In this document: in pieces, positions 12,784-60,965 of the stretch
Numbering within the stretch: position 1 is the stretch's first letter
How the letters are laid out: every line of letters starts with the position of its first letter
IMG/VR virus record: IMGVR_UViG_3300027771_001853
Span: 62,001 to 126,000 of that record
Length of the DNA: 64,000 bases
From: a virus
Strand: one strand, 5' to 3'
Program-made: the position numbers and the translations under genes
Notes under the pieces: model-generated
Databases searched by the model: none
What the model was told of the DNA's origin: nothing
The model's input: only the letters and a program-made list of their open reading frames with translations

Positions 12784-12795
12784 AGTATTGTTTAT

Positions 12796-12804: not shown

Positions 12805-12837
12805 TTGTCTAATTGTGAATTTACCTACCTGTGTGAA

Positions 12838-13122
12838 TTAAGATAATTTGTATTTCTTTAAAGTCCTTTTACAAAGCACTCTTTCCTCCCCATTCTGTAA
12901 AACTAACTCGTAAGCTTTCTTGATTGCGTCTAGACAATCTTTGAACCCTTTCTCTATAACTTTTTTACCTTGGTAGATGGAAGCTTCCTTCGTTCCTGGT
13001 ACCATATCAGCCTTTCCTGACTGTAACTTTCTAGTTCTTGGTTGTTCGATTTTTTGACGGATATCGTATTTTCCAATTTTACAAATATAATTCCCTATTG
13101 TTTCTTTTCTCTTTGTCGCCAT
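12838..13122 (-). CDS. Small basic hypothetical protein, 94 aa
   Basis: This lysine/arginine-rich protein begins 'MATKRKETIGNYICKIGKYD' and ends 'ERVLCKRTLKKYKLS'. A central helix 'KGFKDCLDAIKKAYELVLQN' is amphipathic. The charge suggests nucleic-acid binding, but there is no known motif. It is separated from the gene at 13181 by 58 AT-rich nt that hold TATTTATATTTATATTTG on the coding strand. Confidence 0.55.
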   Translation of the reverse strand: MATKRKETIGNYICKIGKYDIRQKIEQPRTRKLQSGKADMVPGTKEASIYQGKKVIEKGFKDCLDAIKKAYELVLQNGEERVLCKRTLKKYKLS

Positions 13123-13180
13123 TTTAATTTTATTTTTTGATTAGACTTCTTTTAATAGTACAAATATAAATATAAATAAG

Positions 13181-13369
13181 TTATTTACCAACTTTCTTCA
13201 GTATTTTTCTTTCCATGTCTATTATAGTTTTTTCTAGATTTAAAATCTGTTTTTCGACAGTAAGTATTTGTTCTCTTTGTTCTCTAGATGCTTTTGCCTC
13301 CATAATTAACCAAGCGAATGCCACGACCTCTATAATAAATAATAATATTAATAGTGTTGTTTGTATCAT
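13181..13369 (-). CDS. Small membrane protein with a coiled-coil tail, 62 aa
   Basis: One N-terminal transmembrane helix ('TLLILLFIIEVVAFAWLIM') is followed by a heptad-type helix ('REQILTVEKQILNLEKTIID'). This single-pass layout is like that of small holin, spanin or scaffold-anchor proteins, but no family is recognised. I chose the ATG at 13369, 1 nt after the upstream stop, over an upstream in-frame TTG at 13381. It follows the DUF4338 gene in the same operon. Confidence 0.6.
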   Translation of the reverse strand: MIQTTLLILLFIIEVVAFAWLIMEAKASREQREQILTVEKQILNLEKTIIDMERKILKKVGK

Positions 13370-13370
13370 A

Positions 13371-41177: not shown

Positions 41178-43667
41178 TTAAAAGTCAACTTTGATAACAT
41201 ATTGCTGTGAACCGATTCTTGTTTGTGGACTTTTAAGTTTTCCTATAGCTAATAAATCTTTGTTATTATCAAATAACCCTACTTCCGTAACTCTAACTTT
41301 ACTTGTTGAGTTCCAAGTTGGATTTAGTGATGTAACAAATTGACTGGAATTTAATGTAACATGATATCTCATTTCATATATCGTAGCCATTATATCAGAA
41401 TTTAAGTTGCCGAAGAAAAAGTAATTGTCACCAAACTGTAGTAGATTTGGTTCTTGGCTATTGTTTAATGGAATGTTTATATAATCATGTAAATTATAAT
41501 ATGTAGCTGCACTAGTATTCCATTCCCCTAGTATGTAGCTACCTGTACCTGTAACTAAATTTTTAGCTTCAATAGGAAGACCTACTGTGTGTGTCCCACC
41601 TATTTGGTTTGTAACATCAACTTCAAACCATTGTCCTGGAGATGGTCTATCCCCTAAGGCTGTTATCTGGTATAACACTTTTAAAGTATGAGCTTGCCAC
41701 CCTGTACCCGACATAGATGTGGTACAAGCGGTCATAGTGATTGGTCTTAGGTACGGAAATTCAGCACCAAACGACACCGAAATATCTCTATTACCCATAG
41801 TGGTATCTAAACCTCTCATAATGTTATAGTAATTACAATGTAACCCAGTAGTCATACCGGATAAATTTTGTAATTGGTATGTAAGGTAAAGTTGTTTTTG
41901 TGATGCTATCATTGGTGGGTCAGTTATCACACCACCTAAGGTACCACCAACACAACTAATACCTGGTTCTATAAGTTCTACTTTTGGCATTGGTAATGTC
42001 CAATTCCTCCTAGACTTCATATCTAGGGATGCACATATTTCTTCATCATCAAAAGTTATTATTTTAAGGTCTGGCCAAACTTTACCTACCCTATTAGGTT
42101 TTGAACTCTGCCCTGTTAAATCCCTTACCGGGTTGTTATCCCATAAATGGTAATATCTCAACCCTGGGTCATTCATATCCGGATTAGGGTTAGATTGCAT
42201 GTATTGCACACCTACCTCATTAAACACATTAAATCCTGGTGGGTCTACCCAAAAACATTGACCTATTTCACACTGGTCACCTAAACCAGTACTAGGGTCA
42301 TATGGTACAGAAGCATTTACAGCTGCACTAGCAGTTATTTTCTTGTGCCACATTAACCAAGGTATACAAATTTTAAAATTCTTAGCCTCACCATACCCAT
42401 TTAACTGAGTCCCAGCTACTTCCATAGCAAGTTTTTCACCATAGAAATTAGATATAGTTTGGTTGGTGTAGTGTAGTATCGCTATACATTTTTGGTCCTC
42501 CGGTAATACCGCTCTAACTTTACTAAAAGAATCTCTAACGAATGTTCCAGAAATAATAGATGGGTAATAATCGTCTGGTTGTTGTGTTGTATCAAATTGT
42601 CCCGAATTACTGTTATACCCTAGGTATTCCTTGGTACCACAGTAACCACTTGAACCATAGGTATCTACACTACCATATGTACTTGTATCTACACCAGCTA
42701 ACGTTTCAGTCCAGTTTATATTCATATTCCACATTGGAACATCAGCAACAGAAATATCACAATTATTCTCAAATGATAATGAACCTGGTGACCAATACGG
42801 TACTGGTGTTGTAGCACCGTAATAATTATTCATTGGTCCTGAAGGCATTATTAACGCGTTAACACAGTGTGTTGATGTTGTAGATGCTGAGTAGGGATGT
42901 ACACCACTTCCTCCAGCAGCTGCTGCCCAATTTGGTAGGTAGTCACCAACTGGAAGATACACTTCGGTACCAGTTAAATTACCACCACTAGAAAACTCAG
43001 TAGCTGTATTAGCTGATGTCGCTCCCGACATAAATTGATACCACAGGTAAGGGTTGGCTTGGGTTATATCGAAGGGTAACATACTATCCCAACATCCTGT
43101 ATTTGCTGAAAATAACCCGTCATATTGTATTAGTATAAAATCACCCGGTTGTGGGTAATATGTGTTGGATGTACCGCAATTGGTCACACCACTTAATAAA
43201 GTAATGTATGTCCCACCTGTCATAGCAGATACAGGGAAACACCAATTAGACGATTGGACATAAGTAGAATTGGTGAACGCACTGTATTCACTACCTTCTG
43301 TTTCTGTAGCAGAACTAAAAAAACCTCTAGTTTTTGCTCTATTATATACCGTTGTTTCTGTATGTGCTGGCGTAAGTAAACCATATGTCGACCCACTTTG
43401 TTGTGCCGTAATAGGTATAGGATATTTTACGTTTGCTTTATTTCTTTCATTCGCAGAATTAGAAATATTCTGTGCGTTATATTCTGGTCTTAGTATATTA
43501 ATCCCCGAGGATTCAGGTAAACTATTGGTGTAACAGTCATAACACATCTCACTATCCCCTAATTGGAATAACGAAAAGTTAAGCTGTCCTTGTGATAATT
43601 TTTTCCTACCTGCGTCGGTTAACCGAACGGCTAACAAGCCTGAAGTGCTTTTTATTAGGTAACTCAT
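41178..43667 (-). CDS. Large tail structural protein, 829 aa
   Basis: The N-terminus 'LLAVRLTDAGRKKLSQGQL' then 'FSLFQLGDSEMCYDCY' is the clearest copy of the LTDxGRxxL / FxLGDS module shared by three adjacent tail genes. The C-terminus 'VRVTEVGLFDNNKDLLAIGK' matches the EIGLYD ending of the 35461-36585 product. The middle is Ser/Thr/Gly-rich with about 20 cysteines. The combination suggests a baseplate/fibre protein whose ends dock to the tail and whose middle is exposed. A TATTTATCA element is 15 nt upstream of the start. Confidence 0.68.
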   Translation of the reverse strand: MSYLIKSTSGLLAVRLTDAGRKKLSQGQLNFSLFQLGDSEMCYDCYTNSLPESSGINILRPEYNAQNISNSANERNKANVKYPIPITAQQSGSTYGLLTPAHTETTVYNRAKTRGFFSSATETEGSEYSAFTNSTYVQSSNWCFPVSAMTGGTYITLLSGVTNCGTSNTYYPQPGDFILIQYDGLFSANTGCWDSMLPFDITQANPYLWYQFMSGATSANTATEFSSGGNLTGTEVYLPVGDYLPNWAAAAGGSGVHPYSASTTSTHCVNALIMPSGPMNNYYGATTPVPYWSPGSLSFENNCDISVADVPMWNMNINWTETLAGVDTSTYGSVDTYGSSGYCGTKEYLGYNSNSGQFDTTQQPDDYYPSIISGTFVRDSFSKVRAVLPEDQKCIAILHYTNQTISNFYGEKLAMEVAGTQLNGYGEAKNFKICIPWLMWHKKITASAAVNASVPYDPSTGLGDQCEIGQCFWVDPPGFNVFNEVGVQYMQSNPNPDMNDPGLRYYHLWDNNPVRDLTGQSSKPNRVGKVWPDLKIITFDDEEICASLDMKSRRNWTLPMPKVELIEPGISCVGGTLGGVITDPPMIASQKQLYLTYQLQNLSGMTTGLHCNYYNIMRGLDTTMGNRDISVSFGAEFPYLRPITMTACTTSMSGTGWQAHTLKVLYQITALGDRPSPGQWFEVDVTNQIGGTHTVGLPIEAKNLVTGTGSYILGEWNTSAATYYNLHDYINIPLNNSQEPNLLQFGDNYFFFGNLNSDIMATIYEMRYHVTLNSSQFVTSLNPTWNSTSKVRVTEVGLFDNNKDLLAIGKLKSPQTRIGSQQYVIKVDF

Positions 43668-45222: not shown

Positions 45223-47547
45223 TTAACTATTACTTATTTTTGTCCCACCGGTTATCATAAACCCTACATTATCTTTTATTTGTTGTATATCAATAAGTAC
45301 GTTCGGCCTTACCCACGGTATGTTAGTAAAACCAGGTAACCCACCACCATATTGTTTGTAGTAATCATTTTCCACAAATGTGGTAAATGAAACATTTGTT
45401 GTAGCTGAATTTACCGTAGACGTATCTATTATTTGGTTTGTCCTACTTAAACCCTCCAAATCTTTTTCGGTTATGAACGTATTTTTAGTATAGGAAGAAT
45501 TATCTACAATCATATTACTTTGTGACCCAGACAAATAGAAATCGTACCACGTGTTATCTGGTCCCATATTCATACCCCAAATACCAACTCTTTGGTTTCC
45601 TAAGAATTTTAGTAATTCTGTCCCTTTGGCGTAACTTGGAGCGTTATTAGATGTACCTGTCCAACTAGTAGGGTTTAATAAATTGAATTGGATATCGTAT
45701 GCTGTTTGGTAACTAGGGTCACCACTTAATAAACCACAAGTAGCCCCACTTTGTATGTTATTAGTATCACCTAATGTATCTGTCATTCTTATTTTAAACT
45801 TCTCCCCATATTGACCATATCTTTCAGCCCTAAGTCTAATACATCCATGGTCACGTAATGAATAGTACCTATTAACGTTACCGGTTACCGCGGTAACACC
45901 ACCATTTATTGGTGTATTTTCATATTTTTGACTTAGTAATACGTCGTTGAATAGTTGGTTATTGTCACTAAAGCTAGTAACAGAACCATACTCGTGTCTG
46001 TCCCTTACATTATAGTAAACAACAGCACCTCCTGGAAATACTTGTTCGGTAGAACTTAATGTTGTATCAGCTGATAAACTATTTAAACCAAAAGTTAAAT
46101 CATATGTTACCCCTTTTACCCCATAGTACCCAGCATCGTCAGTAAATTGAGCTAAAACTATACCCATAGGGTTTAGGGGTGTTCTTGCGAATGGTATGTC
46201 GGATATTGTAGTTTCAAATACGTAATTATTGTACCCACAAGGTGTCACTAACATACTACTATTTGAATATCCGGCTGTTGCTCCCTCAGTACCTTTTTTC
46301 ATAATTCCTGAATTTGCTGTAGCTCCTTTATATTGTAGATAATCTTTTGCTCTAGTACACCCACTAGTCCAGGTATCACCCATAGTAACACCTGAGATGG
46401 TAAAGTAGTTTTCGTTATCAATAGTAGCTGGCATCCAATCTTGTGTGGTGTATTGGTATTGCGATGTTGGGTTCCCTGCTGTTCTTTGGTTTTGTCTAGG
46501 GTCTAGAGTGAACCAAGCACAGTCTGATGGTTGAGTCTCGTCGACCACATATATTTTATTATTAAAAGTATTAAGAAAGAAACAACCTTTATCTTCTATA
46601 GATAATGTGACACCAGATAACGAATATAGTGGTGTGTTAGGTACTATAGCTGTATTTGGTATTCCCCCTTCTAAAACCGATACGTGATGTGCTCCTCTGT
46701 ACCAATTCTTACTCCTATCCGTCGTCCTTAAACTAGTATCACCAGTATAGAACCACATTTGTGGGTTTGACGTATCTAATATAGCACCGTTATTTTGTAA
46801 ACCAGTTAAGTGTTTTTTTCCTCGTATCTCTATTATCCCTGGTCTATAGTGTGTTACTGGAAACCAGTTTTTAAGGTTAGCTTCCAAACCAAAACTTATA
46901 CCTACAGGGTTAGTCCCCGCACTATAACTGGAATCATAAAATGTTGTTTCACCTGTAACCCCACAATATAATGTATTATCCACATAAAAAGTAGGGTTAT
47001 TATCGTCCACACCCACCACGGAATAAATAGCGTTATCTATATTATTAAAAGTGTGTATTTCTTCCCCAGCTATACCGTCAAAAATCTCATCCAAGTCACC
47101 ATCTTTATACAAAAGATATTTGTAGATACCCGAACTTTCTGGTTTAGTAAAAGAATTAACAGTAATATTGCACTTTGTGTTTGCTGTTAATAAACAGTCT
47201 TGTGATGATAGTGTTGCACCTATACTTAAATCTGTGGTTCCTGAAATAACAACAATCACACTACCGGATAGTGAATTATTATCCACACACAGACCAGTAT
47301 AACTCCCAGCGGTTAAATTACCTAAACTGTTACCTGTATAAGTGGTCCCTGCTGCGTTATTAGCCCAAGTTATTGTGTATGGTGGGGTACCCCCAGATAC
47401 CACTATACCAGTTATACTACCATTGGACTTATCGTTTGGTGTATTATTGTAACTATAATTGGTAAAGAAGGGGTTACCGTATGTTTGGTACCAAAACCTT
47501 CCCCCGAATGAAGATGGGTTTGGACTATTTTCTATTGACCTCGACAT
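45223..47547 (-). CDS. Large tail/baseplate protein with an SprB-like N-terminal repeat, 774 aa
   Basis: Residues 38-103 ('SNGSITGIVVSGGTPPYTIT', 'WANNAAGTTYTGNSLGNLTA', 'GSYTGLCVDNNSLSGSV') have the sequence plan of SprB repeats: SNGSI...GGTPPYT..W...........L.AG.Y...V.D.........I. These repeats occur in gliding and adhesion proteins of flavobacteria. The rest is aromatic and Thr/Asn/Gly-rich beta structure ('MWFYTGDTSLRTTDRSKNWY'). It lies 4 nt after the 2,739-residue gene. An adhesin-like module in a tail protein suggests host-surface binding. Confidence 0.65.
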   Translation of the reverse strand: MSRSIENSPNPSSFGGRFWYQTYGNPFFTNYSYNNTPNDKSNGSITGIVVSGGTPPYTITWANNAAGTTYTGNSLGNLTAGSYTGLCVDNNSLSGSVIVVISGTTDLSIGATLSSQDCLLTANTKCNITVNSFTKPESSGIYKYLLYKDGDLDEIFDGIAGEEIHTFNNIDNAIYSVVGVDDNNPTFYVDNTLYCGVTGETTFYDSSYSAGTNPVGISFGLEANLKNWFPVTHYRPGIIEIRGKKHLTGLQNNGAILDTSNPQMWFYTGDTSLRTTDRSKNWYRGAHHVSVLEGGIPNTAIVPNTPLYSLSGVTLSIEDKGCFFLNTFNNKIYVVDETQPSDCAWFTLDPRQNQRTAGNPTSQYQYTTQDWMPATIDNENYFTISGVTMGDTWTSGCTRAKDYLQYKGATANSGIMKKGTEGATAGYSNSSMLVTPCGYNNYVFETTISDIPFARTPLNPMGIVLAQFTDDAGYYGVKGVTYDLTFGLNSLSADTTLSSTEQVFPGGAVVYYNVRDRHEYGSVTSFSDNNQLFNDVLLSQKYENTPINGGVTAVTGNVNRYYSLRDHGCIRLRAERYGQYGEKFKIRMTDTLGDTNNIQSGATCGLLSGDPSYQTAYDIQFNLLNPTSWTGTSNNAPSYAKGTELLKFLGNQRVGIWGMNMGPDNTWYDFYLSGSQSNMIVDNSSYTKNTFITEKDLEGLSRTNQIIDTSTVNSATTNVSFTTFVENDYYKQYGGGLPGFTNIPWVRPNVLIDIQQIKDNVGFMITGGTKISNS
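47239..47436 (-). repeat. SprB-like repeat unit inside a tail protein
   Basis: It encodes residues 38-103 of the 774-aa product. The key pattern is GGTPPYT-x-W then LTAG-x-Y. Only one unit is present; SprB itself has many. Confidence 0.55.
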
Positions 47548-47551
47548 TTCT

Positions 47552-50500
47552 CTATCTTAATTTTTTTCTATCCCCTATTATAGGCGTGTTATTGGGTGTA
47601 TTTAAATTATACGATGTACTACTAATTTTAGCTCTTTTGCCATCTATAATAATACCTTCCGAACTTAAGTATACCCTCTTATCACAATCTTGTGAAGGTT
47701 GGGCTACGGTAACTGTTTTATTAAAATCACCTTTTAATCTTTGTTGTACATTAACTGTATAATCATCTCTTTCTGTGAAGTCATTTTCCGATGGATTTAT
47801 AACAATAAAGTGGTCAAACATGGATTGTTTAAACATTTTACTTCTAAATGTGGTCTTTATAACATAAGAATTATCTACACTAGGGAACACACTCCTTTCT
47901 GTTGTTTGTGCCCTATTTTGGTACGGTAAATTCCATCTTAGTTTTAACCCTTCCCACTCTATGGACTTATCAGTGTTTATATAGTAATCAGTTATTTTTG
48001 GTGTGTTCTTTTTATATTCATTAGATAAGGTATATGACCATAAATTTGTAGCTCTACCTGGTTGTTTTTCTAATACCATAGGACCATTATACCCCTTACT
48101 TGGTATATCTAAGAAAGTCTGATTATTGAAGTTTCTAGGTGTTATAGAAATAAACCCATTAGGGTTAACATAATCTGATTTTACTTCAGAAGTGTTTATG
48201 TACAATTTACCCACTGTAGCTAGGTCTTTTTGTTCACCACTAGGTAGGTTGATGATGTTAGGTTTATTTTTTTCGTCTTTTTTCCATGTAAATTCTTTAT
48301 TGATTGTAGGTAAATCGTAAGGTCTTCTAGTAATCCTAACCCACGGAGAAGAACTATCTTCGGCGTTTGTTGGTTCTTTTCTACCTAAATTAACTTTAAA
48401 TGCACATGTTTTTGTTGACCCAGTATCTTTTGGATTAGATGACCAATACGCTTCATATTTTAATCTTATTACGTCAGTATCACCACTTAATAAAATAGGT
48501 CCAGTATCTAAATTAACATCAAAAGATTTATGTAGTATTTCAGATGTAGAACCAGAACAACTCATAGTGTTAATATCCTTATCGGTTTCTATTAAATCAT
48601 AAGTTAAGTAGTCATCCGCCCTTGAACGTACCAACTCACTTGTAGTTAGAGTGTATTCTGTTAACGTAGTTTCGGACTGTCCACTTTGATTGGTTAAATA
48701 AATTCTAAAATAGAAATCATTAATACCACCCGTGTTATACCCAGTAGCTGGATTACTTCTCCAGTATGGTTTGATGTTGGTATATTTGTCAGCTATAGTA
48801 CCCTCAAGATTATTAACTAATGTTTTAGGGTCTATCTCAATTGTTGGTGATTGTAGAACTCTCCCACCTTTTAATATTATTGCTGAATTTATTAGTTCTT
48901 TGTATTCGTAATTGTTCGATGGGTACGAATAGTCTAATTCTTCTTTTTTATAGAATCTATTAACATAGTCACACCAAGAATTATCTTCATATATTACATC
49001 TAAAACCGCTTTAAATTGTATTCTATATTTCCCATCCCTAGTAGGTGCGTACACAATACCACCTTCTTGTGTGTTTATTTCTGTCGGTCCACCATTACAA
49101 CCCAAAGACTCTGGTAATATAGCAGCTCTAATTTTACTATCGTCTATCCCTATTAAATGTGAATCTAATGGTGATTTATTACTTAAAGGTATTAATGTGG
49201 TCCCTGTAAATGCACTATAATTAAAATACAAATCAAACATTTGTGTGGTTTCAGTCCCAGATAAACTATAATCCGTATAACCAGTATAGGATTGGGTAAA
49301 CCCAGATTTATCCGCTGTAAATTGTGGCCAACTAGACCAAGTGGTCCCAACAATTTCTGTTGCTGGGTCATTAATTGGTACATAGTAAGCGTGTCCCTGT
49401 TCTTCTAGAGAATAAAAAGAATCTGGTCTAATTGTAATACCACTAAAACTACCATCAGGTGCTGTATGGATAGTACTATTACTAAACCATGGGTTACCCA
49501 CACTTCTTTGTGCCCATTGTAAAACTGACTCCCACTTAATTGGGTATTCTTTAGATTGCATGAATAGGTTATACGACTCTATTCCAGCTATTTGTTGTTC
49601 TTTTAATGATTTTTCAAAATCCTCTCTTTGGTTAACACTTGGGAAGTTTATAAATTGAGCGTTGTCTTCGTTTTGTATTTCTTTCCTCCAACCTACTTGG
49701 TATTCCGTATTGTCATTATGGGTAAACGTTTGGAATTCTGCCCCACCAAAATGAGTTCTAATGTCAGGGTTATTATATTTTAAATCTTTTAAACCGCTAT
49801 TAAGACTCTTACTATTCATTATAATATAAGGTTCTGACCTAAAAATCTCATAAGCGTTATCAGGGTATAAAGGCATTTTATCCTCTAAAAAAGCACCATA
49901 GTCAAATTCAAATGTCCCACCTTCACTTAGAGCTACACCTAAAGGTTCTGAAGGTTCAAAAACTTGTGGAAGATAAGACTGTAAAGTTCTGGATATTGCA
50001 GGTTCACCACCTCCTTGTGGACATGGTTTAGTTGGTACTAACCCATCTAACTCTCCTTGTGTCGTAACCATGGCATCGAAGTTATCGTGAACAACAAAAA
50101 CCAAATTACCATAATTGGTTTGTACCGTATCCCTTCTACAATAACTCTGGAACTGTGTGGACCAGCATTCAGAATAACCAAGACCCACAAGTGGGTTTAA
50201 ATCATACCCAGCTCCGTTTTGACCGAGTGGGTTATTAATGTTAGGTGGTTCAGATACCGAACTATTACCGTCCCATAGAACACCACTAGTGTATGGACCA
50301 CCTACAGCTAACCCCTGATACATATGTGAAATCGAGGCACCTTCCGATGAAGTTAGGTTACCGTCATTACAATGGAATATTTCATAAGCCGCACCTTGCA
50401 TATAACCACCCATACCATGCCACCCACTATACCAATGAGATGTAGTCATGTGGTCTCCAGCCATTCCAATTTGGGATGGTGGTGAGGATATATCATTAGA

Positions 50501-53500
50501 CAGACCAAATAACCCGTAAAGACCCTCCATCATTGGTGCTGTCTGGTATAGGTCAGTAGATGAATCACAAACACCTAATCTTATAGGTATTTTATTACCT
50601 AACACCACATTAGTCGCTCCTCCACTAGCGTGGGTTTGCCAGAATGACGCTGTAAGAAAATTCCTTACACTCATCTCTTTAATTGCTGAATCATCCACTA
50701 ACATCCATAGTTGATTACTTATGTGTGTAGGGTGGGTAAACATTAAATTATTACTAAATAAATCTGCAGCTGTTTGTCCATATGCTGTAGCAGGTGATTG
50801 TGACCCTAGTAACCATAATTCTATAATTGTGTTTTCATCAGTTTTTAGTTTTCCAGCAATTTCTGCTACTATTCCTGGTGGTCCAAAGGCTGCTGTTTCG
50901 TATGAATACGAACTAGTTTTAAACTGCAACATATTAGTTAAACAACATAACGTAATTTTTGCACAAGCAGCTTCACCAACATTATACCCATGTATAGGGT
51001 ACCTTTGGTCTTGTACCGATAAAGAAGTATTAGATGCTAGGGGTCCGAACCAAGGCATGTTAATAATTTCATCAGGAACTAATGATGGGTCAACCCTAGT
51101 AAACGCAACATCCACTAATCCGGTATTATCTGGGGTCGCTGCCCCTATTGTTGCGTCACATTCACAACTTCCTCCACCTCCATTTGTTGTGGTTTGTGTT
51201 ACCGTATCAAAATCACAAGGATTAAATAGGGCTCTAGGAGCCACTTGTGAGATTATACCACTATGTCCTTTGTTAGGACCGGTTGGGGGTACGGGACCAT
51301 CTTCACTTTCATAACCTCCTGCCCTTTGTTCTGTACACACAGCAATATCAAATTTGGTACATAATGTCATACAATTAGAGGCAAACTCTGCTGCGGCAAC
51401 ACTATCACAAAATCCTTGTCCGTCTGTTTGGTGTATTTCAAAACCATTTGGGTAGGCCAGACATGGAGCAGGACAAGCAGGACCTGGGGATGAAGCAATT
51501 GCGAAGGTTCCTGGTGAACTAGAGTATGGTGTTATGTTCCCCCATAAGGTAAATGGATGTCCTGCTCCTCCATGGGTACATGTATTAATAAATGAAATAC
51601 TAGTATCTCCAGTCCAACAAGACACACAGTCACCAGGAGAAAAAGGGGTATGAGCTAGATTGTAATCACCTATACCAGTGGATACTTGATATTCCCATTG
51701 GGTTTGAGCTGGTAAACATTCACAAGGGTCCATTAGTTGAGCACAAGGATAATACTCCTGATAACAAGCTTTACCACCTAAATTAAATATACCATCCTTA
51801 AATATTTCTGGACTTGTTGTTGCTGATGTTGTACCGGTAACTGGTGGGTTTTCTGGTATAAATGTAGCGTCATTACAATCAGCACCTTTCCAAAGATTAT
51901 TACCCCCATCAAAAGGTAATTGGTAATTAGTGGTACTACCTGAACATGGCATGTGTAACCAGTGGTTAGCTAACAATTGGGTTATTTCACTTGGATTATA
52001 GAGTATGTAGTTAACATTTGTCTGTAGTTGGTAACACCCATACCCCTCTACAGTAACTAAGGTATTAACCCCTTGTTGTTGTATATCTTGCCAATAACCC
52101 AAGTTCCACATAGCAATAAGATTTGCTGGTGTTTGTGTCACACTGAGTCCTATATTCCCCAATGGAGAAAAGTACCCACCTTGGACTGTATCACATGGGC
52201 ACACCGTATTACCAGTAAGAATGTCTTCCATCCCACCACAACCAGCATGGAAAGTCTCACAACAAACACCACTGTACACTATCGAGGTTGCTGTCATTGC
52301 TCCTGAAAAAGATACAGTGTTTTGGTCGTATGAAAGGGTCATTCCACTAACAAATAAAGTGGTGTCATGTCCCCACATACTACCGTATTGGTTTGTTAGT
52401 AGATTTGGTCTATGTGTACCGTCAGTACAACTCCAAGTGGTAGCACTTTGTATAAAGGTATTTCCGGTAATTCCTGACCAACTGGTGGTCGCTGAATAAG
52501 CACTGGTACCACCAGTACAACCAGCAAACCCCCAATCCACACAATAATGAACCGTACCTTGTGTCATTCCTGTTCCTGGACAATTCCAACATGTCGAGAG
52601 TCCTCCCCCGTCTATTATTGACGGTGGTGGGAATAATGAACTTGGACCACTTATTAAATCATGACCACTCACAAAGTTATATGTTGGTGTATTACCAGTT
52701 GTTAGTGTGAAATGGTATACCGCCGTATACGCTGAAGTCATACCTGTTGTAGACCAATCAGTTTCAAAAAGTGACTGGTAACTATTGTAAGTGTGAGGGT
52801 CAGAACCATTATTAAAATTCCACAAATCTTCACCTGCTTCACTACAAGGACCTTGTATTAAAATAGCGTCTGGATTATTCAAATAAATGTCCGGTGTACC
52901 ATCTCCATTAATATCTATAGTATTATCGGTTGTATTATCCACAACGTAATAGGTAAGCCCTGAATTAGGGTCTGCTGTATTACCTTGGATACCGGCTAAC
53001 ATACCTGTCATCGCACTAAACCAAAAGCTGGTTTGTGGTGGGTCAGTACACCCAGTACTAGTATAATACACATCACTAGTATAACTTTGACCATTTATTT
53101 CTATATTAGCAGTCCAGTTTGTATGACCTGTACTAGCAGAAAATGTATCTTCACAATTATAACAATGATTAGCTAATGTATCGTATAATGGTGGTCTTGC
53201 ACAATCAATATAAGAACCTAAACATGGTACATCATCACATACAGGTTCGTGTTTATAAGGGAATTTATACCTATGAAAAATAGAATTTTCAAATCTTACA
53301 CCACCTTGCCAAATAGTTGTAGCTGGTATGAATTGTTCCATTAATCTTATCCAGTAATCACCAATCTTACTAGTGTAGTCTATCATTTTTTGGTAGGTAT
53401 ATTTACTACTATCAACCCCACACGTTACCAAATAATTGTTTATATAATCGTCATAAACATTTTGTAAAGTAGGGTAACCCCCACCTTTCGCGTCATCTAT

Positions 53501-55771
53501 AGTTAAACGATTCTTAACATTTATTAAAACCTTATAGAATTGTGACGCAAATTCAAAGAAACTCATTGTGGAAGCGTTTATCTTAATTTCGGTATTATCT
53601 ACCCCACCTAAACTTGGATATGGTGGGGAAACTAACGCTTTAAGACCAAACGGACACCCATATTTCCTTGAGTGGTTCCAAACGTCCCACTCCAATCCTT
53701 GACCTACATTCATGAATAGTTCCACATTCTTAACATTCATAACTAATCTTTCATCGTCTGTAAAATATTTTGTGCCTCTATCTCTTAGACTGTAGTATCT
53801 TCTTTGGAATGTGTCGTTTTCTTCTACCCATGATTTTTTATTATCGACAGTTCTTGTTATGTCGAACCCATCCATCATAGATGGGAATCTTCTAAATCTA
53901 TTTAAATAAGGTTCACCATAAGTAAAAGCGTTTAATTTAGTTTTAACTGTTGGGCTATTCCCAGTAAAAACAGATTTACTGAAATCAGTTACCCTTCTAC
54001 CTCTATGTTCTAAAGTTTGTTCAAACCATCCTGCCCCAGCTTGGAACCAACTGTCGGTACCAACTTGTGGGACAATTGGGAATCCTTGGTCATTTACGGG
54101 GAAATCTCTTCTAGCATAAGGAATATCAGACACTAATGATTTCGTACCAAAAGTATAACCACTTATAGTTGTAGGTATGTAAGGTGCTGTGGTACTAGGT
54201 TGTGTAGCCGTAAACCCAGTTATTCTTACTGGTATTTCTTGCACATAGGTACCACCGGACATTTTCCCCCATGTGGTATTAAAATTCTTCATGTTAATAC
54301 GTTGACCAGCAACATACACATGTTCGTTAAATTCTATTAGTGCTTCGGGAGCACCAATAAACCTTAACATAAATTCTATAGCTTTCCTTGTACCTTTTGA
54401 TTTAAATAGATAGGCTGTATTTAGAATTAATCTTCTATACAAGTCCACATCTAACTCTGCTGGTGTTTTATTACTTACCTCACCACTATATAAAGACTCT
54501 TCTTTTTTCGCTTCTAAGCCAAAAACCGAATCTAAAAAACTATCTTCACTAATAGCTGATGGTGTTTTCCACCCAATAACTTGAGCTAGATTTTTTAATA
54601 AAGCGTCTGGTACATTATCTTGTTTACTATAACTAACATTATTCATGTAAGCTAAACCTTCTATATATTTTTTAACCTCATCAAAACTTCTACCATAAAT
54701 CTGTAAAACTTTTTCTACCTTGTGTTCTGGGGTATCAAATTCTTTTAAGGCTGCAGTAGTTAGGAATCTAGAAATAAGGTTAGTTTTTTCTCTATCCAAT
54801 GCGTCACCAATATCATATAACGAAGTCAAATAAGCCCCAAAAGTAGCTCCTGATATCATAATATTCCAATCGTCTTGCATAGGCCATGTTACTAACTCGG
54901 TAGCCCCAAAGACTTCACCATCTTCCGTTGTTTTCTTTATCTGGAATGTCGAGGTGTATTTTGGGACCGTACTCCTACTTAAAAGATACTGTTCTACATC
55001 AGACATAGAATTGAATATCTCTTCTATTCTAGTTTCTGATAGTTTTACTTGGTAATCCAATAAGGTTGTCCCTGTAATACTACTAGCCCCACTAAATGGG
55101 TTACCTTGGACTATAAAACTTAGTCTACTGTCTGTGGAAGCTGTCGGTGGTGCGTATGACAGTACTGGGTAATTGTTACCTTGTACAGATATGACATAAT
55201 CAGTGAATTTTTTAGTTAAATTACGATATTCACTTGTTCTATTATCACTAGTAGGTAGATTACCTTTTGTCGTAAACTCAATATTAAATGGGTTATTTAA
55301 TCTTGATGACCCAACACTAAAAGTAGCCTCATTCACATTAGGGTCGTAAGTATAACCACTACTAGTATTACCACTAAGTAAATTAAGACCCACTCTATTA
55401 ACGTGTATCACAGCTGGGAAATTTCTTATGACATTAAGAACGGAAACCCTGAATTTTTCTTTTAGGGACCCGAATTGGGTAAAGTTAGTAATCTTGGACC
55501 TATCGTAATTTACAAATACTTCTAATCTATTAGAAACTAATTTTAATGATTCTTCTACCGATTCTATATTAAGACTACTTAACGTGATTGGTTCAGAAAA
55601 ACTACCTAAATCGAAATCTCTATCATCTTTAGTGGGTACAGAATCAGTAACAGCGAAATTACCCAAAGTGAATTGGGGTGTTCCTGTCACATATTGATTA
55701 CCTACTAGATAATCACTGAATGTCCCTGCTCCATTACCAGGTCTTAATTTGTTGTTCTCTCCGTTAGCCAT
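47552..55771 (-). CDS. Giant tail/baseplate protein, 2,739 aa
   Basis: This is the largest gene of the window (8.2 kb). The N-terminal 600 residues are an ordinary helical/beta domain. It includes 'LFKSKGTRKAIEFMLRFIGA' then 'PEALIEFNEHVYVA', which matches a motif I recall from baseplate proteins of large phages ('KSKGTR-AIE-LLR--G-P'). Residues about 800-1650 are Cys/Gly/Thr-rich and include a calcium-type loop 'DNTIDINGDGTPDIYLNN' near 950. The C-terminal 900 residues are again regular beta/alpha sequence. It may join a baseplate core at both ends with an exposed middle. No protease or lysozyme motif is seen. Confidence 0.7.
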   Translation of the reverse strand: MANGENNKLRPGNGAGTFSDYLVGNQYVTGTPQFTLGNFAVTDSVPTKDDRDFDLGSFSEPITLSSLNIESVEESLKLVSNRLEVFVNYDRSKITNFTQFGSLKEKFRVSVLNVIRNFPAVIHVNRVGLNLLSGNTSSGYTYDPNVNEATFSVGSSRLNNPFNIEFTTKGNLPTSDNRTSEYRNLTKKFTDYVISVQGNNYPVLSYAPPTASTDSRLSFIVQGNPFSGASSITGTTLLDYQVKLSETRIEEIFNSMSDVEQYLLSRSTVPKYTSTFQIKKTTEDGEVFGATELVTWPMQDDWNIMISGATFGAYLTSLYDIGDALDREKTNLISRFLTTAALKEFDTPEHKVEKVLQIYGRSFDEVKKYIEGLAYMNNVSYSKQDNVPDALLKNLAQVIGWKTPSAISEDSFLDSVFGLEAKKEESLYSGEVSNKTPAELDVDLYRRLILNTAYLFKSKGTRKAIEFMLRFIGAPEALIEFNEHVYVAGQRINMKNFNTTWGKMSGGTYVQEIPVRITGFTATQPSTTAPYIPTTISGYTFGTKSLVSDIPYARRDFPVNDQGFPIVPQVGTDSWFQAGAGWFEQTLEHRGRRVTDFSKSVFTGNSPTVKTKLNAFTYGEPYLNRFRRFPSMMDGFDITRTVDNKKSWVEENDTFQRRYYSLRDRGTKYFTDDERLVMNVKNVELFMNVGQGLEWDVWNHSRKYGCPFGLKALVSPPYPSLGGVDNTEIKINASTMSFFEFASQFYKVLINVKNRLTIDDAKGGGYPTLQNVYDDYINNYLVTCGVDSSKYTYQKMIDYTSKIGDYWIRLMEQFIPATTIWQGGVRFENSIFHRYKFPYKHEPVCDDVPCLGSYIDCARPPLYDTLANHCYNCEDTFSASTGHTNWTANIEINGQSYTSDVYYTSTGCTDPPQTSFWFSAMTGMLAGIQGNTADPNSGLTYYVVDNTTDNTIDINGDGTPDIYLNNPDAILIQGPCSEAGEDLWNFNNGSDPHTYNSYQSLFETDWSTTGMTSAYTAVYHFTLTTGNTPTYNFVSGHDLISGPSSLFPPPSIIDGGGLSTCWNCPGTGMTQGTVHYCVDWGFAGCTGGTSAYSATTSWSGITGNTFIQSATTWSCTDGTHRPNLLTNQYGSMWGHDTTLFVSGMTLSYDQNTVSFSGAMTATSIVYSGVCCETFHAGCGGMEDILTGNTVCPCDTVQGGYFSPLGNIGLSVTQTPANLIAMWNLGYWQDIQQQGVNTLVTVEGYGCYQLQTNVNYILYNPSEITQLLANHWLHMPCSGSTTNYQLPFDGGNNLWKGADCNDATFIPENPPVTGTTSATTSPEIFKDGIFNLGGKACYQEYYPCAQLMDPCECLPAQTQWEYQVSTGIGDYNLAHTPFSPGDCVSCWTGDTSISFINTCTHGGAGHPFTLWGNITPYSSSPGTFAIASSPGPACPAPCLAYPNGFEIHQTDGQGFCDSVAAAEFASNCMTLCTKFDIAVCTEQRAGGYESEDGPVPPTGPNKGHSGIISQVAPRALFNPCDFDTVTQTTTNGGGGSCECDATIGAATPDNTGLVDVAFTRVDPSLVPDEIINMPWFGPLASNTSLSVQDQRYPIHGYNVGEAACAKITLCCLTNMLQFKTSSYSYETAAFGPPGIVAEIAGKLKTDENTIIELWLLGSQSPATAYGQTAADLFSNNLMFTHPTHISNQLWMLVDDSAIKEMSVRNFLTASFWQTHASGGATNVVLGNKIPIRLGVCDSSTDLYQTAPMMEGLYGLFGLSNDISSPPSQIGMAGDHMTTSHWYSGWHGMGGYMQGAAYEIFHCNDGNLTSSEGASISHMYQGLAVGGPYTSGVLWDGNSSVSEPPNINNPLGQNGAGYDLNPLVGLGYSECWSTQFQSYCRRDTVQTNYGNLVFVVHDNFDAMVTTQGELDGLVPTKPCPQGGGEPAISRTLQSYLPQVFEPSEPLGVALSEGGTFEFDYGAFLEDKMPLYPDNAYEIFRSEPYIIMNSKSLNSGLKDLKYNNPDIRTHFGGAEFQTFTHNDNTEYQVGWRKEIQNEDNAQFINFPSVNQREDFEKSLKEQQIAGIESYNLFMQSKEYPIKWESVLQWAQRSVGNPWFSNSTIHTAPDGSFSGITIRPDSFYSLEEQGHAYYVPINDPATEIVGTTWSSWPQFTADKSGFTQSYTGYTDYSLSGTETTQMFDLYFNYSAFTGTTLIPLSNKSPLDSHLIGIDDSKIRAAILPESLGCNGGPTEINTQEGGIVYAPTRDGKYRIQFKAVLDVIYEDNSWCDYVNRFYKKEELDYSYPSNNYEYKELINSAIILKGGRVLQSPTIEIDPKTLVNNLEGTIADKYTNIKPYWRSNPATGYNTGGINDFYFRIYLTNQSGQSETTLTEYTLTTSELVRSRADDYLTYDLIETDKDINTMSCSGSTSEILHKSFDVNLDTGPILLSGDTDVIRLKYEAYWSSNPKDTGSTKTCAFKVNLGRKEPTNAEDSSSPWVRITRRPYDLPTINKEFTWKKDEKNKPNIINLPSGEQKDLATVGKLYINTSEVKSDYVNPNGFISITPRNFNNQTFLDIPSKGYNGPMVLEKQPGRATNLWSYTLSNEYKKNTPKITDYYINTDKSIEWEGLKLRWNLPYQNRAQTTERSVFPSVDNSYVIKTTFRSKMFKQSMFDHFIVINPSENDFTERDDYTVNVQQRLKGDFNKTVTVAQPSQDCDKRVYLSSEGIIIDGKRAKISSTSYNLNTPNNTPIIGDRKKLR

Positions 55772-55774
55772 ATA

Positions 55775-56680
55775 CTATACAATATTATTGAAAGCTTTAC
55801 TAAAATCTATATTATCTCCCCTATCTTGACGTACTTCATACAATGAATTACCAAACTCATCTCTTTGTTCGAATAAATTATATTGTTTAAATATATTATT
55901 ATCTTTATCGTATAAAGTGTATATTCCGTCAGTAATAGATTTTGTTTGATTACCATATAATGCTATAGCTAAACTATCTAAATCGTAATCAACCATTTCT
56001 ATTTCCATACACACAGGATTAAATTGAGTGTTACTTAATATAACTTCTTGATTTGGGTGTCCTATATATGGTAATGCGTGAGGTTTATTTGTTGGTGCTG
56101 TGGTGGGTGTTAGTGTACAGAATAATAAATTACTTCCACCGTTTACGTATCTATACCTAATAGCTTTTTGGTTACTATTAGTCATGTTTTGTGTTATTGG
56201 TTCACAGAAAAAATTAGATGTAACTATTCTATATAAATTAGGTATTTTAGTACCGTCAGCATTTAAATATTCTATTCTAAAACCTACAAGACCATTATTA
56301 ACAAATTTATTTCTATACTCTGGTGGCACATTATTAATATCAAATATAACACCCTTTACGTTAGGTAGTGAGGATAGTACACCACAATCCGCTAATGGTG
56401 TTCTTATTTCAGCTGGTTTAATATACAGAGTGTATATCCCTTTATCTTTAAATTGGGTTGCTGGTAATTGTAGATTGTATAACCCACCCAATAATTCTAT
56501 ATTAGGGTTACCACCCGTAGTGGTATTATGATAATATGGTGTTAAAATAGATGAAGCGTCCAATTTTCTTATAACTGGTACTTCGGTAGCGTCTCTCGAT
56601 GAGGTGTATACCATTAATATATCAACGTCGTCTGGTGATACATCTGAAGGTCTTTTAATTCCGTATGTTCCTAATGCCAT
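55775..56680 (-). CDS. Tail/baseplate structural protein, 301 aa
   Basis: A beta-rich protein ('DVDILMVYTSSRDATEVPVI', 'KGIYTLYIKPAEIRTPLADC', 'IEMVDYDLDSLAIALYGNQT'). It sits between the Cys-repeat protein (10-nt overlap) and the 2,739-residue protein (3-nt gap). The middle region shows 'EYLNADGTKIPNLYRIVTSN'. It probably links or stabilises the giant protein. No family recognised. Confidence 0.62.
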   Translation of the reverse strand: MALGTYGIKRPSDVSPDDVDILMVYTSSRDATEVPVIRKLDASSILTPYYHNTTTGGNPNIELLGGLYNLQLPATQFKDKGIYTLYIKPAEIRTPLADCGVLSSLPNVKGVIFDINNVPPEYRNKFVNNGLVGFRIEYLNADGTKIPNLYRIVTSNFFCEPITQNMTNSNQKAIRYRYVNGGSNLLFCTLTPTTAPTNKPHALPYIGHPNQEVILSNTQFNPVCMEIEMVDYDLDSLAIALYGNQTKSITDGIYTLYDKDNNIFKQYNLFEQRDEFGNSLYEVRQDRGDNIDFSKAFNNIV

Positions 56681-59600
56681 TTTGTACTTTTTGTTAATTC
56701 TTTGTTTATTTGGTAGAAACCATATCCATATATTTCTAATCCCCCGATAGTATCAATTTCACCTAACCTTTGGGAACTCTCAAATACTGACTGTTTGCCT
56801 CTGTTAATAAATAGTTCTGACTGAATTTCTACTTCCTGACAAACATTTATTAATACTTCCTCTTTTGTGATAGCCGACATACATAATTCAATTTCATGTC
56901 CATTGTATGGATTTAACCCCACAGGTACCTCCATTTCAGGGTAAATACAAGTCCCATCATCTACAAGAGCTAGATTATTATAGTTGGTTGCGAGTGGGTC
57001 TGTACACCCATATTGTGGGTAAACACAACAACTAGTATCGTTTATATTTGGTGGGGAACCGCAGCCCAATACTGTCGGTCCACCGTAATTTATCGCTAAT
57101 GGGTCATTACATCCTTGCCCTACACCACCATATTCACAACAACCATCATCCACATCAGGTAAACCTACATTATCCCCATTACAATTAAACTTCCAATTTG
57201 AAGCTAAAGGGTCTGTACAACCATAAATCGGAAATTCACAACAACATTCTGGGGTTGGTACACCACATGGATTAGGGTTCGCAACATCATCACAAGGAAG
57301 ATTAGCAGCTGGATTATAGTTGATGGCTGACGTATTCATACAACCAACTGTAGGGTCTGGACACCCAGTATCAAATGTAGCATATGGACAATAAAGAGGA
57401 TGTCCTGGGTCCATACACCCTGGAAGTTCTATAACACAACTACCATCATCTATCGAATAACTACTTGGTGAAGCATTTGGTGGGTTATATAAGTTTCCAT
57501 TACATGATATTAGTGGACCCGCAGGCATACCCGCTAATGCTGGATATATATTAGCGTAAGATACCGAAGCTGGGGTCGTATATGGGCCCACTTGAACAAT
57601 ACTTGTGTTTAGGTGGTCCCCAAATATAGGGGTGTTAGGTGGTGTTGCTAATGCACTTTCAAATTGACCTGAACCTACATTATATGTACATCCAGCGTCA
57701 AAGTAACAACAATCATTAGTACCACCGGCTGTATTACAAGGATTTATTGTAACCCAAGTTGCCGTTGCGTTTTGTGTCATTACAGTCAAATTTAAAGATA
57801 GAGAACCAGCAATAAAATTACCATTATCGTCCCATACCCCACGCATATAATTTGATGCCGCTGGGTCTAAACATGCTTGGATGGTGTACATACACCCACC
57901 AAAACCCTCTCCATTAATGTGGGCTGGTTTAGCACCATAATTTACTGTGTTTGCTGGTCCAGCGTTTCTTGGCCAGTTATCAACGTAATTTGAAGGATTG
58001 GTACCTAGATTATCCGCTACAACACCAGCACCTGCTGGGTTTGATGGTATGAATGAATCCATTGGGTCACCGTTGGAACTGTATTGGTTACCGTCGTCCA
58101 AACACCCATAAACATAAGGGGTACATGAGTGATGTCTCCAAGCATCTCCACCGTAGGTGGTGTCGTAGTTTCCATCTCCATAGTTTGGCCATAATGTTCC
58201 TGAATTTTTGTTTTGCCAATAATCACCAGCATCTACCTCATAATAAGTTCTTCCTCCCGTTGCTGGTGTGTAGGCAGCACCCCAATTGTCTGGATGCCCA
58301 GCACAAGTAATACCCATCGGTGCATTTGTAGTTGGGGCAGTAGTTGGGTCACAGGCACCGGAACCAACACCATTAGAACCAACAGTACCGGCATAAGGTC
58401 TAATAACATGACTAGGTGGGTCATTTGCAGATACACTAAAAGTACCGGTATACCAATCTTGAGGTACGTTACTATAATTACAATCACAGTAATATTGGTC
58501 CATACTAAATCCTTGCATTACTCTCTTGTTAAACTGCATATCTACAGTCAAAGCGTACCCATATCTATCTATTTGAGCTGAACAACAGTAATTAGGCCCA
58601 CTACCTATTTTCTGTCTATATTGTGGTTGTGGTTCTGATGTTAAAGCTTTTTGTTTACGTAATTCCTGTCTTAAATAATCCTGAGGTGTAAAATTATCTG
58701 TTAATAGGTGTGACCAATGTCTATTATCGTTTTTATTTGCATTTAAAGAAAATCCTTGTCTTTTTAATGGGGGACTAATAAAACTACTTGCACATTCTTC
58801 CCAATGTCCAGACTGTGCAGAAGGTTCAATACCAACACTACTACTAACATCGTATCCTGTTCTCCAATAACACTGTGTTTGTCCGGCTTGGTTAACCCAT
58901 TCCACTATCATCCCAGCATCATAATCAGTAGCACTTCCCACAGCAAGAGCTGATGGCGGTGGTGGTGATTGCCATACACCAAACCACCCTATAAATGCAC
59001 CAGTGGAATTAGGACACGGACATGGTGATACTGGTGTGTAGTTACAACATATGTGGTCTAAATTTTTATAATCTAAACCGTAGGTATACCCACTAAACGT
59101 TGTACCACCAGAAGTGTCAATATATAATATATCATTAACGGTATAACCTGTAGCTATATCTGTTATATAATTAATTACACCACTACCATCAGCACCGTTT
59201 AAAGGTACTGTTGCCCCAACCACATACATATTAGGTCCCCAGTTTTGTAATATTGTTAAATGACTCTCACTTTCTCCAGTTATATAAAAAGGCATAGTCG
59301 TACCGAAATTAGCTTGTGCGTTACTAAAATGGTCCATCACATCAGGGTTACTATCCCCGCTAAAGATATAGTCTTGGAATATACTTTCACACCCAATAGG
59401 TGTTTCAAACCCTGGGGGTTTTAGTTCTATGGTACCAAACATATTACCAGCTGAAGGATAATTCATGGTATATGGTAGAGTTATATGTTTTGAAACGTAT
59501 ACTGTCCCCCATGGGTTTATTTGTTGTAATGTCATCGTATACCCAGTTAAATTAGGTAGGTATGTATGTGTAGATATTGGTGTTGCTATTGATAGGTCGT

Positions 59601-60075
59601 CTATGGTAGAACCGTCACCCCAATTCAATGTATAGTTTGAGAATTCTAAGAATTTTTTAAATTGGAAATCTGAGCTATTAAAGACCGTAACATTGTAACC
59701 GTTCCCAGTATAAACAAAGTTTGTTACAACATCTCTTTGTAATACCATACCATCAAAAGGTGTATATACCCCTATATCGTTAAAGTCTTCAGTTAAACAA
59801 AGTGTTACTGTTGCTCCTGACACACATGGTGGTGTTGGTCCCTCTCCTCTAACTGGAGCAGTATTTCTCCATGTTTTACACCAATAATCCTTTTCTACTG
59901 GAGCTTTCCAATAATCACAAAACCCGTTTTGAAAGAAGAAACAGTCCTCACATTTTTGACCTGAGGGGACATCTTTAGATGTGTACGGTTGGTAGGCCAC
60001 AGGTAATTGTGGTGGAATAACATCAGTTCTTCCAGGGTAAAGTTTTCTTTTTATTTTTATATTAATCTTTTCCAT
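56671..60075 (-). CDS. Large tail protein with Cys motif and GC-D-P-A-NY repeats, 1,134 aa
   Basis: I chose the ATG at 60075, which overlaps the upstream stop by 1 nt (TAATG), over one at 60090. The N-terminus has a four-cysteine motif 'KCEDCFFFQNGFCDYWKAP' plus 'KDYWCKTW', a CxxC...C...C pattern resembling small iron-sulfur or zinc sites in phage tail proteins. The last 400 residues contain about six repeats related to 'GCTDPLATNYNN...DDGTCIY', separated by variable loops. These repeats are common in secreted adhesin-like proteins of marine Bacteroidota. The middle is Gly/Pro/Asn-rich. It probably has a receptor-binding role. Confidence 0.68.
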   Translation of the reverse strand: MEKINIKIKRKLYPGRTDVIPPQLPVAYQPYTSKDVPSGQKCEDCFFFQNGFCDYWKAPVEKDYWCKTWRNTAPVRGEGPTPPCVSGATVTLCLTEDFNDIGVYTPFDGMVLQRDVVTNFVYTGNGYNVTVFNSSDFQFKKFLEFSNYTLNWGDGSTIDDLSIATPISTHTYLPNLTGYTMTLQQINPWGTVYVSKHITLPYTMNYPSAGNMFGTIELKPPGFETPIGCESIFQDYIFSGDSNPDVMDHFSNAQANFGTTMPFYITGESESHLTILQNWGPNMYVVGATVPLNGADGSGVINYITDIATGYTVNDILYIDTSGGTTFSGYTYGLDYKNLDHICCNYTPVSPCPCPNSTGAFIGWFGVWQSPPPPSALAVGSATDYDAGMIVEWVNQAGQTQCYWRTGYDVSSSVGIEPSAQSGHWEECASSFISPPLKRQGFSLNANKNDNRHWSHLLTDNFTPQDYLRQELRKQKALTSEPQPQYRQKIGSGPNYCCSAQIDRYGYALTVDMQFNKRVMQGFSMDQYYCDCNYSNVPQDWYTGTFSVSANDPPSHVIRPYAGTVGSNGVGSGACDPTTAPTTNAPMGITCAGHPDNWGAAYTPATGGRTYYEVDAGDYWQNKNSGTLWPNYGDGNYDTTYGGDAWRHHSCTPYVYGCLDDGNQYSSNGDPMDSFIPSNPAGAGVVADNLGTNPSNYVDNWPRNAGPANTVNYGAKPAHINGEGFGGCMYTIQACLDPAASNYMRGVWDDNGNFIAGSLSLNLTVMTQNATATWVTINPCNTAGGTNDCCYFDAGCTYNVGSGQFESALATPPNTPIFGDHLNTSIVQVGPYTTPASVSYANIYPALAGMPAGPLISCNGNLYNPPNASPSSYSIDDGSCVIELPGCMDPGHPLYCPYATFDTGCPDPTVGCMNTSAINYNPAANLPCDDVANPNPCGVPTPECCCEFPIYGCTDPLASNWKFNCNGDNVGLPDVDDGCCEYGGVGQGCNDPLAINYGGPTVLGCGSPPNINDTSCCVYPQYGCTDPLATNYNNLALVDDGTCIYPEMEVPVGLNPYNGHEIELCMSAITKEEVLINVCQEVEIQSELFINRGKQSVFESSQRLGEIDTIGGLEIYGYGFYQINKELTKSTKWH
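56935..57905 (-). repeat. Cluster of GC-D-P-A-NY cysteine repeats
   Basis: Six recognisable units: 'YGCTDPLATNYNN', 'QGCNDPLAINYGG', 'YGCTDPLASNWKF', 'VGCMNTSAINYNPAAN', 'PGCMDPGHPLYCPYA' and 'QACLDPAASNYMRG'. Each is followed by a D/N-rich segment with one or more cysteines. Confidence 0.7.
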
Positions 60076-60965
60076 TATGCTGTGGTCCATTGATAAAATT
60101 CAATGGGTGATGCTGGTGTTAACCCTACTCTGGTACCACCTAATTGAACCGTATAGGTAAAATTTGTTGTGTTTATAGGTACTTCATAAAAGAATGAACT
60201 AGCTGGTTGTGTTGTGGGTAATAATGGAGCTGGATTCTTATTGGTAAACTTGACCACTTCCCCCCTAATACCATTATAAAATTGAGCCGACATATAGAAC
60301 TTTCTTATATCTAATAATTTGGTATCCTTCAACCAATGTATATAGTACCCCTCGTCTTTTGTTGTTAATATGAATTCTGGTATATTAACGTCTCTTCTGG
60401 TTTCAATAATTACTTTATTTGGGTTAAACGGGTCTAGTACAGGAGGGTCAGGTATACCATCATTGTTAAAATCTACCGTATCCATTATTTGTTTCTCGGA
60501 CATTGTCGCGTTTAAAATCAATGACATGTATAAAGTTTGGTCACTCCTATTAGGTGAATCGTAAAAATCCATTTTAAAAAAACTTTTCTTAAAGGTTTTA
60601 TCATTTTGGTACATTTGCATTCTTGTAAACCCTTGTGTTTCGTAAGCTGATTCGTTTGGTGGTCCGAGAAAAGTAAAATAACTACCCGGATTAGTGGGTA
60701 CCCCTATGGATGGGTCTTGGAAGTAGAACTTATAATATACTGGTGGTGATGGGTCCGGTACCCCCAACGCTGGGTCCATGTTTTCTGATGGTCTATACCT
60801 TGTTACTTCATAATCTTTAGCCTTACCTATAACCTTATTTAATACATCATCTTCGTATGTTTTTATTAAATCTTCTCTCCCCGCGTCATCAAAATCTAAA
60901 CTTAGGGGTAAGATTACTTTTTGTTCCTTTGAGTCCACTCTTATTTTATATCTATTGACAGTCAT
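60075..60965 (-). CDS. Tail/baseplate structural protein, 296 aa
   Basis: It begins 'MTVNRYKIRVDSKEQKVILP'. A calcium-type loop 'TVDFNNDGIPDPPVLDPFNP' lies in the middle and a beta-rich C-terminus ends 'IEFYQWTTA'. It overlaps the upstream gene by 14 nt and the downstream start by 1 nt, so it is translationally coupled to both. Probably a baseplate wedge-type protein; no family match. Confidence 0.62.
   Translation of the reverse strand: MTVNRYKIRVDSKEQKVILPLSLDFDDAGREDLIKTYEDDVLNKVIGKAKDYEVTRYRPSENMDPALGVPDPSPPVYYKFYFQDPSIGVPTNPGSYFTFLGPPNESAYETQGFTRMQMYQNDKTFKKSFFKMDFYDSPNRSDQTLYMSLILNATMSEKQIMDTVDFNNDGIPDPPVLDPFNPNKVIIETRRDVNIPEFILTTKDEGYYIHWLKDTKLLDIRKFYMSAQFYNGIRGEVVKFTNKNPAPLLPTTQPASSFFYEVPINTTNFTYTVQLGGTRVGLTPASPIEFYQWTTA

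Follow-up and report, generated by a model that had tools for sequence, protein, structure and literature searches.

The window analyzed here is a 64,000-nucleotide stretch of the IMG/VR virus record IMGVR_UViG_3300027771_001853 (bases 62001-126000 of 297,623; labeled G000), which represents a very large (297.6 kb, jumbo) marine phage. Within it, a row of genes on the minus strand encodes two proteins with modules of the kind found in secreted and surface proteins of bacteria: a 1139-aa tail protein (56671..60090; 1134 aa if started at the second ATG, at 60075) with short cysteine units, and a 774-aa protein (45223..47547) with one N-terminal SprB-like module. The same row contains an 829-aa protein (41178..43667), a 2739-aa tail protein (47552..55771), and a conserved 301-aa neighbor (55775..56680), which has at least 509 relatives in IMG/VR and serves here as the marker of the tail cluster. 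This gene order is kept in a distant phage of 231 kb (G008), including that of the 2739-aa and 301-aa genes; its 301-aa protein is 51% identical, and it encodes a homologue of the 829-aa protein (E 1e-79).

In a near relative (L004), a gp25 baseplate wedge protein (48.6 bits), which in tblastn matches the baseplate wedge subunits of T4-like phages, lies ahead of the matching gene row. A Baseplate_J-like protein also lies upstream of the cluster (a weak match of 16.3 bits, below cut-off). Thus, the arrangement expected of a T4-like myovirus baseplate cluster, with gp25 and gp6/J homologues beside tail genes, is found in L004, whose gene order is that of the window. Because this gp25/Baseplate_J row occurs in L004 and L005 has an identical order, gene context places the 774-aa and 1139-aa proteins in a predicted T4-like baseplate/tail region. 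L004 also retains both modules, with 74% identity over the 1139-aa protein and 84% over the 774-aa protein.

The architecture of the 1139-aa protein becomes clear when it is compared to a compact, 360-aa form (L290), which aligns only to aa 89-332 and aa 1045-1130. Since the compact form matches both flanks and nothing between them, the window protein is a conserved core interrupted by a block of ~700 aa that holds the cysteine units. The N-terminal part of the core (~aa 89-335; 59086..59826) is 40% identical to L290 (E 2e-42), while the C-terminal part (~aa 1051-1130; 56701..56940) is marked by the motif E(I/V)QS..FI.RGK.S...RLGE......YGYGF, which is present in the 80 upstream proteins listed in our comparison of related loci (see below). 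The block itself spans ~aa 336-1050 (56941..59085), with boundaries that are approximate. Ahead of the core is a four-cysteine motif, CEDC...C...WC..W (aa 44-76; 59863..59961), which is reminiscent of HiPIP iron-sulfur proteins, and aa 29-99 match a stretch of Pontimonas phage phiPsal1 that is annotated as prohead protease (34% identity, E 5e-5).

The units, GC.DP.A.NY...DDG(S/T)C, occupy aa 662-1052 (56935..58107) of this protein, which contains 50 cysteines in all, and are supported by motif matches, by profile scores, and by an AlphaFold model of the last three. The original prediction, made from the DNA alone, had counted about six GC(T/M/N)DP-A-NY repeats, which is a fair estimate: we count approximately eight by eye, several of them degenerate or bearing insertions, and five matches to the strict motif [GA]C.[DN][PT].A.N[YW]. 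In shuffled versions of the protein, this motif occurs 0.0001 times per shuffle (20,000 shuffles, maximum 1). In the GCTD cysteine-unit family, which we define in the present analysis by alignment, units have a GC.D..A.N(Y/F) core, a C-terminal DDGSC, a spacing of 19 residues (the most frequent among related units), and a tandem arrangement; the 1139-aa protein has these features, with insertions in several units. Its best unit scores 55.7 bits (E 1.9e-15) against a unit profile that includes that unit. The units are short, and the SprB match described below falls under its curated cut-off, as would be expected if the cysteine motifs and the GGTPPYT string had arisen by chance or convergence without common ancestry. 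The shuffling result, unit E-values down to 1.9e-15, and the retention of the SprB-like segment in the relatives seen make such an origin very improbable.

To follow the block among relatives, the best 80 of at least 509 IMG/VR matches to the 301-aa marker were kept, and these are thus the most similar loci rather than a random sample. In 72 of the 80, the gene just upstream of the marker encodes a protein of 357-398 aa with zero units, whereas in the remaining eight, it is longer (796-963 aa where complete) and contains 2-5 units. In three loci (L254, L255, L258), the protein is divided into two open reading frames (ORFs) at the block. On the marker tree, the window, L004, and seven other unit-bearing rows form a clade (96/86), and 57 distinct unit-free rows group together. 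G008 is also unit-bearing but lies on a long branch; just upstream of its marker is a 530-aa protein with six units that shares homology with the window protein at the C-terminus. With G008 included, the tree fits either one ancient gain followed by loss or two gains. The original prediction had proposed transfer between host surface genes and phage tail genes. As the repeat block is missing from most relatives, modules do enter or leave tail genes, and that part of the proposal stands; the evidence on recent transfer from a host, considered below, points the other way.

The profile used to place the units was built from 33 of them, drawn from phage contigs, one Marinimicrobia protein, and G000. 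When compared to PDB sequences, it returns a single confident kind of match, the truncated EGF-like linker of perforin-2/MPEG1 (E 5.6e-7; PDB 6u2j, 6sb3), and one unit of the family to which the phage and bacterial repeats belong lies at residues 331-352 of 6u2j chain A. This truncated EGF-like domain of perforin-2 has been described (PMC6989145). Perforin-2 is an animal immune protein in which the domain occurs once, as a linker, whereas here, the units form tandem arrays in phage tail and secreted proteins. The AlphaFold model of the last three window units is only fair overall (74.4), with a pLDDT of ~91 for the last unit, and a fold search with it returned nothing below E 3, a result that is useful only in combination with the perforin-2 sequence match.

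The precedent of perforin-2, where the single truncated EGF-like module acts as a linker or hinge, would suit a purely structural function, in which Ig-like and small disulfide domains lengthen or stiffen a baseplate protein without binding the host. Consistent with this, the units are conserved rather than diversifying, and the SprB-like module is single and N-terminal; phage fibers usually anchor by their N-terminus. Against it, a tail protein of the same family does without the block in 72 of the 80 loci, and tandem units differ in number, as they do in adhesive arrays, with 2-5 in relatives and ~8 in the window protein. We consider a spacer or stabilizer function unlikely on balance, though it is the most serious of the alternatives.

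Units of the same family are also found on the host side, in 80 of 298 genomes related to a Marinimicrobia genome; a scan of genome contigs with restrictive patterns returned Marinimicrobia only. The Marinimicrobia proteins (L007-L009 and relatives L103-L122) share the consensus yGCTDPeAlNYNPdATvDDGSCiY, and in one of them (L009), the domain beside the units resembles, by eye, that of the phage secreted proteins described below. Unlike the tail protein, which has no signal peptide, they are long and secreted. Among named phages, virion structural proteins with 1-3 units each are encoded by Synechococcus phages S-CAM3 and S-CAM4 and by marine virus AG-345-P14 (Kyanoviridae), and in S-CAM3 and S-CAM4, the unit genes adjoin tail collar or short tail fiber genes. 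These phages infect a host of another phylum, and homology to the window protein is seen only within the units. A plasmid collection contained zero units. Overall, the modules appear to form a pool common to marine bacterial secretomes and phages rather than a one-off capture.

A recent capture of host adhesin segments by the tail genes, mimicking the host surface, would explain why secreted proteins of Marinimicrobia have homologous units, among them the unusual NC.G...DDGCCEY variant (71% over 31 aa). When scored with hold-out profiles, however, the best window unit reaches 53.4 bits with the virion-type phage profile, 48.9 with the host profile, and 47.9 with the phage-secreted profile (53-54, 49-50, and 48 for the tail units), such that the tail units appear slightly closer to other phages' virion units than to host units. 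This is a weak test, as the differences are only 3-5 bits, the classes overlap, and the hold-out accuracy for virion units is 61%. In addition, units occupy the corresponding position of this tail gene in the distant G008, the Synechococcus phages carry them in virion proteins, and the third-position GC content (GC3) of the 1139-aa gene (0.246) equals that of its neighbors. Based on the unit-class scores, with the weakness just noted, and on the syntenic G008, we rejected recent capture as the principal explanation and regard it as improbable.

The SprB-like module of the 774-aa protein spans aa 38-95 (NGSITGIVVSGGTPPYTITW...LTAGSYTG; 47263..47436), close to an N-terminus that reads MSRSIENSPNPSS. 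It was recognized by a Pfam SprB match at aa 38-65 and by alignment with phage SprB repeats that exceed the cut-off. The match is real but modest (E=5.3e-5, 23.2 bits), falling below the curated cut-off of 28 bits for PF13573, and the segment that the original prediction had reported is thus present without qualifying for formal family membership. It shares with the repeat of the gliding adhesin SprB the GGTPPYT.TW core followed by an L.AG.Y stretch. Unlike the adhesin, the 774-aa protein has one copy and no tandem array, and it lacks both a signal peptide and the C-terminal sorting domain of the type IX secretion system (T9SS). The T9SS-cargo combination of signal peptide and sorting domain is likewise lacking in the 1139-aa protein. 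The broader proposal, that the modules are homologous to those of secreted and surface proteins of the Bacteroidota/Marinimicrobia kind, is borne out by the Pfam SprB match and by the Marinimicrobia units. The SprB-like segment is 89% identical in L006, a relative 84% identical to the 774-aa protein, and four further homologues have a similar GGT.PY segment near the N-terminus; the module was not seen in G008. A structure model suggests beta-strand with low confidence (pLDDT 61), and a fold search with this model, which is too weak for the purpose, returned nothing below 0.001.

SprB repeats are found in other phages as well. A scan with the SprB-like segment matched 40 IMG/VR contigs, and seven of nine scanned phage proteins exceed the Pfam SprB cut-off (86.2, 84.7, 48.7, 37.5, 34.0, 33.5, and 29.9 bits), with a further match of 52.7 bits in a protein from L058. 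By eye, the SprB-matching phage proteins listed have no obvious signal peptide. One phage protein (L084) combines SprB and cysteine units. In the literature searched, SprB repeats and phages are mentioned together in a paper on polymorphic toxins of Bacteroidetes (PMC7073777).

Taking module homology, tail context, the presence or absence of the block, and co-occurrence with a phage T9SS-type protein (described below) as our observations, we propose that the 774-aa and 1139-aa proteins are baseplate/tail-fiber virion proteins of a T4-like jumbo phage, whose extra modules aid attachment to the host surface, and we assign this reading a probability of roughly 0.5. In this view, the 1139-aa protein is a compact, conserved tail protein of ~360 aa that bears an extra ~700-aa block with short disulfide-type, truncated EGF-like units, and the 774-aa protein has its SprB-like module at the N-terminus. 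Projecting from the tail, the modules could provide a low-specificity hold on a marine host whose surface is coated with polymers and protein. Several points weigh against this. The virion assignment is based on gene position and homology, 72 of the 80 related tail clusters evidently function without units, and unit disulfides would need to form after assembly, the cytoplasm being reducing. Furthermore, a comparison of G000 with L004 shows no hypervariability in the units. The repeat block is 72.8% identical, close to the 75.8% of its neighbors, so the repeats appear conserved rather than fast-evolving, with no sign of an arms race acting on them. The C-terminal aa 1057-1139 are 92.8% identical, whereas aa 561-660 (58111-58410, minus strand) are only 38% identical between flanks of 73-77%, and this stretch might be the true specificity region. 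Together with the conservation of the repeats, it is the chief argument against the units determining specificity. With such modules both in the tail proteins of this phage and in a secreted protein encoded by it and by many other marine phages, phages may be drawing on the surface toolkit of the bacteria they infect. Since one conserved tail protein exists both with and without adhesin-type modules, the effect of the modules on adsorption is directly testable.

The same phage encodes a second type of unit-bearing protein, located ~19 kb before the window start. This 1321-aa protein (G000:39355-43320, minus strand; L092:7356-11321) has a signal peptide (MRNIFLYITTLLIPFLGFTQ, by eye), ~20 cysteine units, and a T9SS type A sorting domain that scores above cut-off in both Pfam (Por_Secre_tail, 44.7 bits) and NCBIfam (TIGR04183, 40.3 bits), as expected of type A cargo. 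An assembly chimera is made less likely by the GC3 of its gene (0.247), which is the same as in the tail genes (0.245-0.27). As the phage encodes a T9SS sorting domain and signal peptides, its host is most likely a T9SS-bearing bacterium of the Bacteroidota. T9SS sorting domains are present at 55 of 73 scanned ends of unit-bearing viral ORFs and occur exactly once in 12 of 15 tested records.

In other phages, the T9SS unit protein belongs to a cassette with a ~355-aa outer-membrane-type barrel, a 94-aa membrane coiled-coil, and a ~115-aa thioredoxin-fold protein, the barrel and coiled-coil being assigned from sequence. At least 515 matches to the barrel were identified in marine phage contigs, and all four genes are present in 34 of the 34 kept loci of at least 14 kb (among the IMG/VR contigs L126-L205). 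G000 encodes, near its T9SS gene, a protein distantly related to the barrel (hhalign 96%). No relative of the barrel was found in the annotated phage collection, and its candidacy as a PorP/SprF partner of the T9SS was dropped for want of any match to NCBIfam or Pfam models. Of the 34 loci, 27 include a holin- or endolysin-like gene, with Pfam support for only part of the seeds; as the commonest seed is without it, the idea that the cassette always sits in a lysis module was also abandoned. Phage hallmarks were identified in five of the cassette records (gp25 in 4/15, terminase in 4/15), while the others may be fragments.

Phage-encoded T9SS cargo is known from Cryophage (Bellas et al. 2020, PMC7468147), where an endoglucanase, a glycoside hydrolase, and a PA14 protein bear T9SS type A sorting domains as variable genes. 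The proteins described here share this sorting domain, but unlike the Cryophage cargo, they are repeat proteins and belong to a four-gene cassette that is conserved across hundreds of IMG/VR contigs. In a literature search that excluded subscription papers and preprints, this was the only description of phage-encoded T9SS cargo, and neither the cassette nor the units had been described. We tentatively suggest, with somewhat less confidence than for attachment, that a very common group of marine phages carries a dedicated surface-remodeling or exit cassette, including a periplasmic thioredoxin-fold protein, that is exported via the host T9SS during infection and that its jumbo members reuse the units on their tails. 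In this second use of the units, the T9SS-sorted repeat protein would coat, or be released from, the infected cell. A widespread, apparently undescribed cassette of this kind would place a phage protein on an infected marine bacterium by way of the host's own secretion system.

G000 and at least five further phage records (G008, G017, G317, G322, G329) contain both secreted-type and other unit-bearing ORFs. Together with the position of the secreted protein within a conserved envelope cassette, this raises the question of whether the two might interact, with tail units binding the T9SS-sorted unit protein on the infected cell and thereby capturing or blocking virions (superinfection exclusion) or holding progeny together. 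However, most cassette phages examined by locus have no demonstrated tail units, and the tail and secreted units fall into different profile classes, such that we consider a homotypic system of this kind doubtful at best.

Finally, several other genes of G000 are of note. An 801-aa TonB-dependent receptor (barrel 96 bits, plug 73.8 bits) is encoded at ~32.1-34.5 kb (L092:100-2505, minus strand). Three signal-peptide proteins have degenerate, T9SS-like C-termini by eye (L092:3226-4524, L092:15582-16100, and L003:1396-2403), the first containing a thioredoxin-type WCGPC motif and the last a weak SprB match. Two further unit-bearing ORFs lie at 170-181 kb. At ~178-182 kb, two proteins have poly-Thr linkers (L096:9706-11628 and 11661-13571), one resembling a trypsin-type protease (GDSG, by eye) and the other bearing cysteine units. 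Within the window, the minus strand encodes a leucine-rich-repeat protein at 11503-12783, with an LRR_13 match barely above cut-off, and, at 13371-14546, a DruA-domain protein (PF14236, 84 bits), which represents a Druantia-related gene on a phage.

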